Notes under the pieces: model-generated
Databases searched by the model: none
Told to the model about the DNA's origin: nothing
The model's input: only the letters and a program-made list of their open reading frames with translations
Origin: Streptomyces cyaneochromogenes
GTDB taxonomy: Bacteria > Actinomycetota > Actinomycetes > Streptomycetales > Streptomycetaceae
Assembly: GCF_003963535.1 (NCBI RefSeq)
Contig: NZ_CP034539.1
Location: 4,464,001-4,528,000, forward strand
Reading direction: 5' to 3'
Length of the DNA: 64,000 nucleotides
Shown here: positions 41,327 to 44,429 of the stretch, one piece after another
Position numbering within the stretch: position 1 is the first letter of the stretch
Layout: every line of letters starts with the position of its first letter
Made by a program: the position numbers and the translations under genes

Positions 41327-41767
41327 CTACTCCAACCGCAGGTCCAGCCACAGATCGCTCTCGCCGTCCAGCACATAGCGATCGACCTCCACGAACCCAC
41401 GCGCCCCGGCGAACCGCACCCCGTCCTCATTGGCGGCCAGCACACAGGTCTCGATCACCCCGGCGCCCAGCACGCGCGCGTGCGCGAGCCCATCCTCGTA
41501 CAGCTCCCCGCCGTACCCGCGCCGCCGGTACTCGGGCAGCACGCGCGCGATGACCGTCGCCACGGCCTCCTCGCCCTCCGGCGGCCGCACGGTCGAACAG
41601 CCGACGAGGACATCACCGACGTAGGCGTTCCGCAGCCGGTACCGGCCGCTGCGCTCCCGTACGTCTGCCAGATCCATGGCCGCCGGCGGAACGATCACGT
41701 TGTGGACGTACCGCCACTCCTCAAGCATGACCTCGCCGGCGACCGGCACGATCCGAAGCTCAGACAC
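41327..41767 (-). CDS. GNAT family N-acetyltransferase
   Basis: A 146-residue acetyltransferase. The acetyl-CoA pyrophosphate loop RVLPEYRRRGYGGELYEDGL (motif A, Q/RxxGxG/A) is intact at about residues 76-95. GTG 41767 has GGGGGA nine bases upstream; GTG 41776 is in frame. It overlaps the end of the RidA gene by eight bases, so the two are one operon. Acceptor substrate not known. Confidence 0.85.
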   Translation of the reverse strand: MSELRIVPVAGEVMLEEWRYVHNVIVPPAAMDLADVRERSGRYRLRNAYVGDVLVGCSTVRPPEGEEAVATVIARVLPEYRRRGYGGELYEDGLAHARVLGAGVIETCVLAANEDGVRFAGARGFVEVDRYVLDGESDLWLDLRLE

Positions 41768-42170
41768 GCGCGCCACTCCCCCGCCGGGCGTACACCTCGA
41801 TCTCGAACCTCATACGAGGATCGGCCAGCCCACACACCATCATCGTCGCCGCCGGCCGCACCTCACCGAAATACCGCCGCAGCACCGGCCAGCACCGCTC
41901 GAAGTCCTCCCGCTCCGGCAGCAGATACCGCACCCGCACCACATCCGCGAACGAACACCCCGCCTCCTCCAGCGCGGCCCCCACGTTCCGCAGACACTGC
42001 TCGGCCTGCTCCACGACGTCCTCGGAGATCGTCATCGCCGCATAGTCGAACCCCGTCGTCCCCGACACATGCACCCAGTCCCCGTCGACCACGGCACGCG
42101 CGTACCCGATCTGCTCCTCGAAGGTCGAACCACTGAGAATCGCAACCCGCCCTGCATGCTGCTCCGTCAT
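41760..42170 (-). CDS. RidA family protein (enamine/imine deaminase)
   Basis: A 136-residue YjgF/YER057c/UK114-type protein. VVDGDWVHVSGTTGFD and the C-terminal GEVRPAATMMVCGLADPRMRFEIEVYA, with the conserved Arg of RPA, fit an active RidA that hydrolyses reactive enamines and imines. ATG 42170 has no strong ribosome site. It heads a RidA-GNAT operon and is divergent from the IscB locus. Confidence 0.92.
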   Translation of the reverse strand: MTEQHAGRVAILSGSTFEEQIGYARAVVDGDWVHVSGTTGFDYAAMTISEDVVEQAEQCLRNVGAALEEAGCSFADVVRVRYLLPEREDFERCWPVLRRYFGEVRPAATMMVCGLADPRMRFEIEVYARRGSGARV

Positions 42171-42491
42171 GATCGGAACGCTAGGTGAGCGCTGTTGATA
42201 GGTCTACCGGGAATCCAGCACCTCCCTAGCCCCACCAGCATCCACCGCATCAATCTCACGTGGAGTGGTGTTCCGGCTCGTGGCTCCGCGTACGCCCCAA
42301 TCGACTATGCGTCCAGAGAATTCGATCAGTTCGCACGAATGAGCGACTTCTAATGACTTTCACCCGATGCGCAGATCATTGCCGTTAGCTTCGGCAGCAC
42401 ACGAGAAGGGAGGTCACTCGCTCCCCGACCACGAAGTCGTCGAGTGACCAGCCTCAGTCATCACGATCGGCATGATCAGGGAGGTGCCCCG
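42171..42491 (+). ncRNA. Candidate omega (HEARO-type) RNA region upstream of IscB
   Basis: This 321-base gap has no coding frame with a credible start but several hairpins: GCCG/CGGC around 42381-42395, and GGTCACTCG/CGAGTGACC at 42412-42420 with 42441-42449, which encloses an inner GAC/GTC. IscB proteins use a guide RNA that is encoded immediately 5' of their gene, so the RNA should be in this stretch and possibly extends to about 42785. Exact boundaries, guide and orientation could not be fixed by eye. Confidence 0.5.
42412..42449. other. 9-bp stem hairpin before IscB
   Basis: GGTCACTCG at 42412-42420 pairs with CGAGTGACC at 42441-42449, and GAC/GTC pairs inside the 20-base loop. It lies 42 bases before the IscB ATG. 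It may be part of the omega RNA or a transposon-end hairpin. Confidence 0.65.
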
Positions 42492-44150
42492 ATGACTACG
42501 TTTCCTGCAGGCGAGCAGACCCACCAGGCTGTGCTTCCTCAGCAGCCTGCTCTGGAATCCGTGGGAGCAGACACCCCCGGGAGCAGGGACGAAACGGCTC
42601 ACGGACACCCCGCCACCGCGTGGGGCACCGGCAGGGAACATGGGCGAGGGGAGACCGACGGGCGCGGCACCAGGCCTCGTCGGCGTCACGCCAAGGGCGC
42701 CACCACGGTGGCGAACGCGGCAGAGAACGGGAGCGGTGACGCTCCCACACACAATCCGTCGTACAAAGGCGGCGTCGGCGCGAGCAGAGTCTTCGTGCTG
42801 TCCAAGGACGGACAGCCCCTCATGCCCTGCCACCCCGCCCGCGCCCGCGAACTCCTCGGCAAGGGACGAGCCGTGGTTGCCCGGCAAGTCCCCTTCACCA
42901 TCCGCCTGAAGGACCGCACACGAGCCGAGTCAGCAGTCGAGGGCCTGCAGCTACGCATCGACCCCGGCTCCAAAGGCACCGGCCTCGTCCTCACCGACGA
43001 GAAGAAGGAGATCGACGAACACGGCACCACCGTAACCGTCCGACGCGGCCTCATCTCGATCGAGCTCCAGCATCGCGGCGAGCAGATCCGTTCATCCATG
43101 CGTAAGCGTGCCGGATACCGCCATAGACGGCGATCTGCGAACTGCCGCTACCGAGCACCCCGCTCGGACAACCGCACGCGCCCGGCAGGATGGTTACCAC
43201 CCTCCCTGCGGCACCGCGTCGACAGCACGTTCTCCCTGGCGAAACGGCTGGGCCGCTTCGCGCCCGTCACCGAGATCTACGTGGAGCGCGTCTCCTTCGA
43301 CACCCACTCCATGAGCGCGGGCAGACCCCTCAAAGGCGCTGAGTACAAGCAGGGAACGCTCGCCGGAACCGATGCCCGTGTCTACCTGCGCGCCATGTGG
43401 AACAACGCCTGCGCCTACTGCGACGCCACCGGCGTCCCCCTGAACATCGAGCACCTCAGACCTCGCAGCCGAGGAGGCTCCAACCGCATCACCAACCTCG
43501 TCCTCGCCTGCACGCCCTGCAACGAGGCCAAGGGCAGTAAACCCGTCGAGGTCTTCCTCGCCCAACGACCCGACCGCCTCGCACGCATCCTCCAGCAGAT
43601 AGAGACACCACTCCACGACGCCGCCGCCATGAACGCGACCCGATGGCAGCTCACGGAGGCACTGGCCACGCTCGGCCTGCCGGTGCACACCTCGACGGGC
43701 ATGTGCACCAAGGACAACCGATGCGCCATGGGGCTGGCCAAAACACACACCCTGGACGCGTTGTCCGTCGGGCACCTGGATCACGAGGCCGGTGACGCGA
43801 TCGTGCGATACCCCGGGCAGGTCCTCGTCGCCAAGGCCACCGGGCGCGGCTCCTACGCCCGTACCACCACGGATCGCTACGGATTCCCGCGCCTGCGGCG
43901 GGCCCGGACCAAGCAGCACTTCGGATACTTCACCGGAGATCTCGTGCGCGCCAGTGTCCCGACCGGGAAGTGGGCGGGCACGTGGATCGGCCGTATCTCG
44001 GTCCGAGCCAGGGGACAGCACAGCCTCACGACGCCGATGGGCAGAGTCAACGTCTCGCACTGGAATCTGGAGCTCCTGCAACGGGGCGACGGATACGGCT
44101 ACAGCATCCTGCGCGAATCCGCTCCTCCAACATCCCGGAAAAACGGTTGA
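42492..44150 (+). CDS. iscB: IscB-type RNA-guided nuclease (RuvC-HNH, RRXRR domain)
   Basis: A 552-residue IscB. The PLMP domain begins at about residue 100 (VFVLSKDGQPLMPCHP). RuvC-I has Asp157 in LRIDPGSKGTG. An Arg-rich bridge helix (RSSMRKRAGYRHRRRSA) follows. RuvC-II has Glu265 in EIYVERVSFD. The HNH has His321 in IEHLRPRSRGG with paired Cys at 307/310 and 340/343. RuvC-III has His419 and Asp422 in THTLDALSVG. All catalytic positions are present. ATG 42492 has GGGAGGTG upstream. The first 100 residues are low-complexity and their DNA is rich in hairpins, so the real start may be internal. Leu235 is a TTA codon, so translation should need bldA tRNA. No transposase is linked. Confidence 0.9.
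   Translation: MTTFPAGEQTHQAVLPQQPALESVGADTPGSRDETAHGHPATAWGTGREHGRGETDGRGTRPRRRHAKGATTVANAAENGSGDAPTHNPSYKGGVGASRVFVLSKDGQPLMPCHPARARELLGKGRAVVARQVPFTIRLKDRTRAESAVEGLQLRIDPGSKGTGLVLTDEKKEIDEHGTTVTVRRGLISIELQHRGEQIRSSMRKRAGYRHRRRSANCRYRAPRSDNRTRPAGWLPPSLRHRVDSTFSLAKRLGRFAPVTEIYVERVSFDTHSMSAGRPLKGAEYKQGTLAGTDARVYLRAMWNNACAYCDATGVPLNIEHLRPRSRGGSNRITNLVLACTPCNEAKGSKPVEVFLAQRPDRLARILQQIETPLHDAAAMNATRWQLTEALATLGLPVHTSTGMCTKDNRCAMGLAKTHTLDALSVGHLDHEAGDAIVRYPGQVLVAKATGRGSYARTTTDRYGFPRLRRARTKQHFGYFTGDLVRASVPTGKWAGTWIGRISVRARGQHSLTTPMGRVNVSHWNLELLQRGDGYGYSILRESAPPTSRKNG
42698..42746. other. Two hairpins in the 5' part of the IscB frame
   Basis: CGCCAC/GTGGCG (42698-42703 with 42708-42713) and a perfect GGGAGCG-GTGA-CGCTCCC at 42729-42746. 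They lie immediately before the conserved PLMP part. This suggests that the RNA scaffold overlaps the annotated N-terminus. Confidence 0.6.
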
Positions 44151-44187
44151 TCCGTGCCCGACCGGTTCCTAGGGTGTGGCTTACGCC

Positions 44188-44258
44188 GAAAGGAGGTGAT
44201 CGGGTAAATGAGTGAAACCCGGACTCGCGAGGTGGCTGCGGGCTAGCGGCTCGCCACC
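44188..44258 (+). other. Structured tail downstream of IscB with extended Shine-Dalgarno
   Basis: GAAAGGAGGTGATC at 44188-44201 is complementary over 14 bases to the expected 3' end of 16S rRNA. A 12-codon ORF follows. GGTGGC (44231-44236) and GCCACC (44253-44258) then form a stem whose loop holds the stop codon. The run continues with further short hairpins to about 44310. It may be the right end of the IscB element. Confidence 0.5.
44208..44246 (+). CDS. Putative 12-residue peptide MSETRTREVAAG
   Basis: ATG at 44208 follows one of the strongest possible ribosome sites in the window. The short peptide ends at TAG 44244-44246 inside a hairpin loop. Either a leader peptide or a by-product of a structured RNA. 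Function unknown. Confidence 0.4.
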   Translation: MSETRTREVAAG

Positions 44259-44429
44259 ACACCCAGTGCGGTGCCGGACCAGCACGCGAGAGAAACGTGC
44301 AGCCGGCCCAATCTCAAGCAGTCACCCGACCCGCGAGCTCGCCGGCACGTCCGGCCGGCTCCCCCGCCCAGGCGTGGGATCCGAGTTCGCGGGTCGTCTG
44401 CATTTTCGACGGCTCAATGCCTCGACAGC

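Follow-up and report, generated by a model that had tools for sequence, protein, structure and literature searches.

The locus analysed here lies in a 64,000-nucleotide (nt) stretch of the Streptomyces cyaneochromogenes chromosome (NZ_CP034539.1, positions 4,464,001 to 4,528,000; hereafter the window), where a gene for an IscB protein and its omega RNA (HEARO) are located directly 5' of the Ms_IGR-5 gene (Table 1). We consider it likely that promoter, guide, omega RNA and iscB together form an RNA-guided homing element of the "intronless" type that has no transposase. The guide, GCACACGAGAAGGGAG, is identical to the promoter-proximal Ms_IGR-5 leader of strains that lack IscB, where it is followed by GTGGTTCGG. 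The resident allele carries CTTACGCCGAAAGGAG at the same site, paired with the 3' flank GTGATCGGG, and agrees with the guide in register at 7 of 16 positions and differs at at least 7 of 16.

A 17-mer overlapping the guide, CACACGAGAAGGGAGGT, is present in 46 of 296 Streptomyces genomes, with a single occurrence in each; the reversed control pattern was found in 1 genome among the 296. The 30 matches fetched comprise the guide itself and 29 foreign sites, 26 of which parse as Ms_IGR-5, and in the window genome the pattern is matched by the guide alone.

Guides and target alleles at the Ms_IGR-5 locus

The match between guide and target, its allele specificity and the mismatch to the own allele are apparent from a comparison of 22 copies at the Ms_IGR-5 locus that have a readable guide with 72 IscB-less Ms_IGR-5 leaders, using Shine-Dalgarno-like 16-mers from the same DNA as the null. 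The guides of L011, L016 and L020 were read from the alignment and L036 is without a guide (copies and loci carry L numbers, genomes G numbers); guide length and the target-adjacent motif (TAM) were deduced from alignments. The best matches to IscB-less alleles have a mean of 1.4 mismatches in 16, with 21 of 22 guides within 2 and 22 of 22 within 3, compared with a mean of 4.9 for the null 16-mers (4% within 2, 8% within 3). Mere Shine-Dalgarno likeness was rejected as the source of the match on this comparison. In none of the 22 copies is the own allele within 3 mismatches of the guide (mean 6.1); permutation, in a model that leaves out relatedness, gives P=0.001 over all alleles and P=0.009 when restricted to those of carriers.

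Three sites in the Ms_IGR-5 leader are targeted across the copies, each followed by RTG. The guide types CACACGAGAAGGGAG, ACTTCGGAAAGGAG and ACGCCGAAAGGAG track the corresponding alleles of site 1; the guides of L016, L018 and L107 are aimed at site 2 inside the short open reading frame (ORF) of the gene (CCGGACGCGCGAG, then GTGGCT), that of L018 being exactly site 2 of L204, L206, L208 and L224; and the L106 guide is aimed at a third site (GGTTCGGCAG, then ATG). The commonest Ms_IGR-5 allele is present in 30 of 72 non-carriers and in 2 of 25 carriers (P=0.0025). Guides also fit alleles of other carriers: that of L014 fits the L012 allele, and that of L023 the alleles of L013 and L014.

The locus is fixed, and both empty sites and decayed copies are found. 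An IscB copy or remnant is present at Ms_IGR-5 in about 20 of 296 Streptomyces genomes, most genomes being without one, and several are decayed (L015, L019, L021, L023 and L034-L036). The start of a RidA-like gene forms the left flank of the insertion in the window strain and several others, and in the IscB-less L041, L043, L045, L052 and L060 this gene is about 50 nt from the Ms_IGR-5 promoter. The comparison with empty sites proposed in a first-pass annotation of the window, made from its letters and reading frames, reveals an insertion of ~1.9 kb between the two genes, containing the promoter-like sequence, guide, omega RNA and iscB.

The IscB protein and its omega RNA

The first-pass annotation had described a complete IscB with its motifs intact in one frame, an omega RNA encoded 5' of the gene in a hairpin-rich segment, and no linked transposase; all three descriptions are borne out. 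The IscB frame is held in ORF 42444-44150 of a Streptomyces-type host chromosome of 10.68 Mb, and it covers the whole of the NCBIfam model NF040563 (guided_IscB) with 395 bits against a cut-off of 175, matches both the RRXRR and HNH domains of Pfam, and also matches solved IscB structures. The PLMP motif, bridge helix, split RuvC and HNH are complete in one protein, and the catalytic motifs are all intact (numbering of the 552-residue frame): RuvC-I D157 in RIDPGS (Asp codon at 42960); RuvC-II E265 in YVERVSF (Glu codon at 43284); HNH H321 in IEHLRPR (codon at 43452), with the CxxC pairs C307/C310 and C340/C343; and RuvC-III H419 (43746) and D422 (43755) in KTHTLDA. As judged from the motifs, these residues correspond to the catalytic positions D61, E193, H340, D343 and H247 of OgeuIscB (PMC9640706). 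By its protein and RNA features, the window IscB is a candidate RNA-guided nuclease, and the third-codon-position bias of the iscB body indicates purifying selection. IscB proteins are related to the ancestor of Cas9. No transposase stands beside the window copy, the single Y1-transposase match of the genome being 4.2 Mb away. That lone match is at G000:C1:334364-334513, near one chromosome end, and is unlinked to either IscB of the genome.

The omega RNA matches the covariance model RF02033 (HEARO) over its full length with 64.2 bits and E 4e-12, below the Rfam gathering score of 83, and the consensus fold of aligned related copies contains 23 pairs with compensatory changes. Within the left part of the element, TTCGCACGAATG (about 42332-42343) is conserved, as is, shortly 5' of the guide, a -10-like TAGCTT (about 42387-42392), suggesting that this part acts as a promoter. 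The omega RNA transcript would begin at the guide.

The first ~85 codons of iscB overlap the omega RNA. A start codon (ATG, GTG or TTG, then [AG]CTACGT) and a Shine-Dalgarno sequence within the omega RNA are kept in nearly all copies, as is a frame open up to PLMP, and length changes at the Ms_IGR-5 locus are only multiples of 3. The exceptions to this conservation are L013, L022 and L024, of which L013 is the sole exception among the copies examined at the Ms_IGR-5 locus; in L013, L106 and L024, ACG replaces the start codon. Divergence in the omega RNA part of the frame is about 0.05 at each of the three codon positions, compared with a third-position divergence about 3 times that of the first position near the start of the iscB body. 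Because the codon positions diverge equally in the omega RNA part, the N-terminal sequence appears to be held by the RNA, and the IscB N-terminus is probably translated yet constrained by the RNA. The N-terminus of ~100 residues is thus more than the read-through artefact that it was initially suggested to be, as start and frame are kept, although its sequence is RNA-held. The start codon and the frame over the omega RNA (42492-42745) are conserved in both of the IscB lineages described below. Upstream of iscB in L015, sequence resembling the end of a group II intron (end of an HNH-type maturase, domain V-like hairpin) stands in place of the 5' part of the omega RNA.

Proposed homing and competing explanations

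In a tree of 35 IscB copies, the 21 copies linked to Ms_IGR-5 form one clade with 100/100 support. L106 (S. olivochromogenes), also at the Ms_IGR-5 locus, falls in another IscB lineage, which indicates that the locus was reached at least twice. A second family, 55-60% identical, occupies other loci and has one member in the window genome: L004 (G000:C1:5264844-5266469), which has its own HEARO RNA and stands directly 5' of a Uma2-like gene. In the other-lineage copies tested, the insertion is between the leader of a gene and its start codon, and the native leader is the guide. L022 and L024 both stand 5' of one gene, and its empty leader TTGAGGAGACCTAGGG, then ATGACG, is the L022 guide; the L029 guide is the empty leader ACCGGAGGTGACGGCCCGG, then ATGACT; the L004 guide equals the leader of the Uma2-like gene in L230 and L231 over 24 nt, with the start codon there two bases later; and L033 (1140-2860) is at the nrdA/nrdB junction TGCGAGGCCTGCCAGTA, then ATGAGC, that is, at the nrdB start codon. 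The nrd genes are classic homing targets. No target was found for the guide of L027. Since their guides are the native leaders at the point of insertion, these relatives occupy the very sites that they target. The window clade differs from them: right of its element the native promoter and leader remain intact, and its immunity would stem from the differing Ms_IGR-5 allele. A transposon-like rule, under which an insertion's left flank serves as its guide, was considered as well; it is true at four other loci and false at the window locus.

Several further observations concern these lineages. The right ends of L022 and L024 appear to supply a replacement ribosome-binding site before the ATG of the gene that is split from its leader. 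Genome G257 has five IscB copies of the other lineage, which may therefore still be spreading to new loci. Among plasmids, a protein search returned only IscBs of <60% identity, so no plasmid carrier of the window clade is known. HEARO insertions have reportedly been placed 5' of ATGA/GTGA before (Weinberg, 2009).

Based on the guide, target and insertion data, we propose that IscB and its omega RNA would recognize the Ms_IGR-5 leader of element-less strains through the 16-nt guide match followed by a required RTG-type TAM. When carrier and non-carrier DNA come to share a cell, as may happen in Streptomyces mating, the non-carrier Ms_IGR-5 would be cut: DNA bearing GCACACGAGAAGGGAGGTGGTTCGG is expected to be cleaved and the resident GCTTACGCCGAAAGGAGGTGATCGG to be spared. 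Repair by homologous recombination would then copy in the element plus the linked Ms_IGR-5 leader, and the converted chromosome would be immune because the guide does not match the co-copied leader. The sequence match places the target where a homing element should have it, in the allelic region of element-less strains and near the locus of the element, and homing predicts a cycle of gain, decay and loss into which the decayed copies fit. The chances seem to us evenly balanced that the element is, beyond this, a self-retargeting natural chromosomal RNA-guided gene drive, in which IscB lineages would time and again take up new guides that track the circulating alleles of one conserved gene, the linked allele would be uncuttable, and carriers would convert non-carriers and attack each other.

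Comparison with known systems clarifies what would be particular to this element. As in other IscB/OMEGA nucleases (NF040563; RF02033), the protein architecture is retained, the omega RNA is directly 5', the guide abuts the scaffold and the putative TAM is on the 3' side, but the window element is without a transposase, its guide matches other strains' alleles of the neighbouring gene, and its omega RNA shares sequence with the probably translated N-terminus. Free-standing homing endonucleases of T-even phages (intronless homing, seg/mob) cut outside the endonuclease gene, with co-conversion of flanking DNA (PMC2988022). Similarly, the window nuclease gene adjoins the predicted cleavage site rather than containing it, the site of its own genome would be spared, and the element would spread by recombination with co-conversion; it differs in that specificity lies in a replaceable RNA guide, not in the protein, in that the setting is a cellular chromosome, not a phage, and in that homing is here a proposal. 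IS200/IS605 TnpB in plasmids displays gene-drive behaviour, with a transposase (PMC11870625). The window nuclease would likewise favour element-bearing DNA through cutting element-free copies; however, the TnpB guide records the insertion site of the transposon itself and TnpA moves it, whereas the window has no TnpA and the target there lies outside the element and is a differing allele.

The best-surviving alternative, which we nevertheless regard as unlikely, is allelic exclusion, in which an allele-specific cut would eliminate or poison non-carrier DNA, incoming or resident, as in cleave-and-protect addiction, and the element would not be copied. The guide, target and immunity data fit it equally, as does the aiming of carriers at one another's alleles, from L014 at L012 and from L023 at L013 and L014. 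It leaves unexplained why two independent lineages each have the element adjoining its own target, and the at-target insertion of the close relatives is the classical layout of homing.

Far less probable is that the element is left over from an IS200/IS605-type (ISC) transposon mobilized in trans by TnpA, in which case the guide would simply be the DNA flanking the insertion. IscB proteins do occur in IS200/IS605-type elements, the genome has one Y1-transposase match, and relatives at other loci have their left flank as guide. At the window locus, by contrast, the linked Y1 transposase that defines such elements is absent, promoter-like sequence common to the copies stands left of the guide, Ms_IGR-5 keeps its native promoter and leader intact on the right side of the element, and the guide fits the alleles of other strains, not the local one. 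Among HEARO nucleases, few have a linked TnpA (PMC9755519).

TldR proteins are TnpB-derived RNA-guided repressors that their guides direct to a gene's promoter or leader. An analogous role, in which IscB and its omega RNA would bind the promoter or leader of the adjacent gene and repress it as these nuclease-dead repressors do, draws on the fact that the window guide likewise points to the adjacent gene, at its promoter-proximal leader and ribosome-binding site, and is slightly less probable again: the nuclease residues are intact, unlike those of TldR, and regulation of the own gene is rejected because the own leaders, 0 of 22 within 3 mismatches, do not match the guides. Equally improbable is a domesticated host gene or inert fossil inherited vertically, for which the shared locus in many species and the purifying selection on the gene body would speak, but which is at odds with the patchy presence, the frequent decay, and guides that vary from copy to copy while the target gene is constant. 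Domestication and mobilization in trans had both been offered in the first-pass annotation to account for the missing transposase; neither is needed, as guide, target and insertion locus fit homing.

Several points weigh against homing. Part of the distribution may be due to vertical descent accompanied by losses, and copying in needs resection or left-flank homology, whereas the left flank differs between strains. Some guides keep 2-3 mismatches to every allele sampled; the target is partly Shine-Dalgarno-like, which raises background similarity (controlled by the Shine-Dalgarno-like null); and the own-allele permutation, although significant, takes no account of relatedness. The case for homing rests on sequence.

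To our knowledge, the natural role of transposase-free IscB proteins is poorly understood, and at this locus the natural target, allele specificity and self/non-self rule of such a protein can be read from comparative sequence. If the proposal is true, RNA-guided nucleases spread among bacterial chromosomes by homing and bring a linked immune allele with them, in an arrangement that synthetic gene drives use too, and guides change naturally to keep pace with target alleles. Laboratory matings are possible in Streptomyces. The literature searched, outside which most subscription papers fall, contained no account of IscB homing beside an adjacent host gene.

Neighbouring genes and the right flank

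Orthologues of Ms_IGR-5 are present in 101 of 101 Streptomyces searched, and the RNA has been seen in transcript data from S. lividans and S. avermitilis (PMC8079986, PMC8780764). The block TTGATC-N17-TAGGGT to the right of the element is its putative promoter, and the iscB stop codon falls within the -35 box. The structured DNA that the first-pass annotation noted on both sides of iscB is the HEARO RNA on the left; that on the right is the separate Ms_IGR-5 gene and not part of the element.

Table 1. Features of the IscB locus in the window
Feature	Position	Strand	Remarks
RidA/YjgF-like gene, left neighbour	41760..42170	-	ORF; family name by reading sequence
Left element part, promoter-like	42190..42396	+	In related copies; absent from empty sites
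Omega RNA guide GCACACGAGAAGGGAG	42397..42412	+	16 nt abutting first HEARO position 42413
Omega RNA (HEARO) scaffold	42413..42745	+	Rfam match 42413-42659; more conserved hairpins to about 42745
iscB	42492..44150	+	552 codons from ATG 42492; Shine-Dalgarno GGAGGT 42480-42485
PLMP motif	42816..42827	+	Residue 109 of 552-residue frame
RuvC/HNH region	42960..43757	+	Motif reading and domain matches
Native Ms_IGR-5 promoter (putative), TTGATC-N17-TAGGGT	44147..44175	+	Same block in empty sites; intact right of element
Resident target site 1 CTTACGCCGAAAGGAG	44180..44195	+	Then GTGATC
Ms_IGR-5 gene (Rfam RF02471)	44183..44402	+	76.7 bits; holds 12-codon ORF 44208-44246
Resident target site 2 AACCCGGACTCGCGAG	44216..44231	+	Then GTGGCT; aimed at by L016, L018 and L107 guides

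The 12-codon ORF in Ms_IGR-5 is conserved, reading MSETRTREVAAG here and MYEYRTREVAAG in others, with the strong Shine-Dalgarno sequence AAGGAGGTGATC, and may yield a small protein. Just 5' of the Ms_IGR-5 promoter, the IscB-less L058 and L039 carry CCGTCAACATCTCGG or a near copy, which resembles the 3' end of the element; these stretches are possible scars of lost copies.
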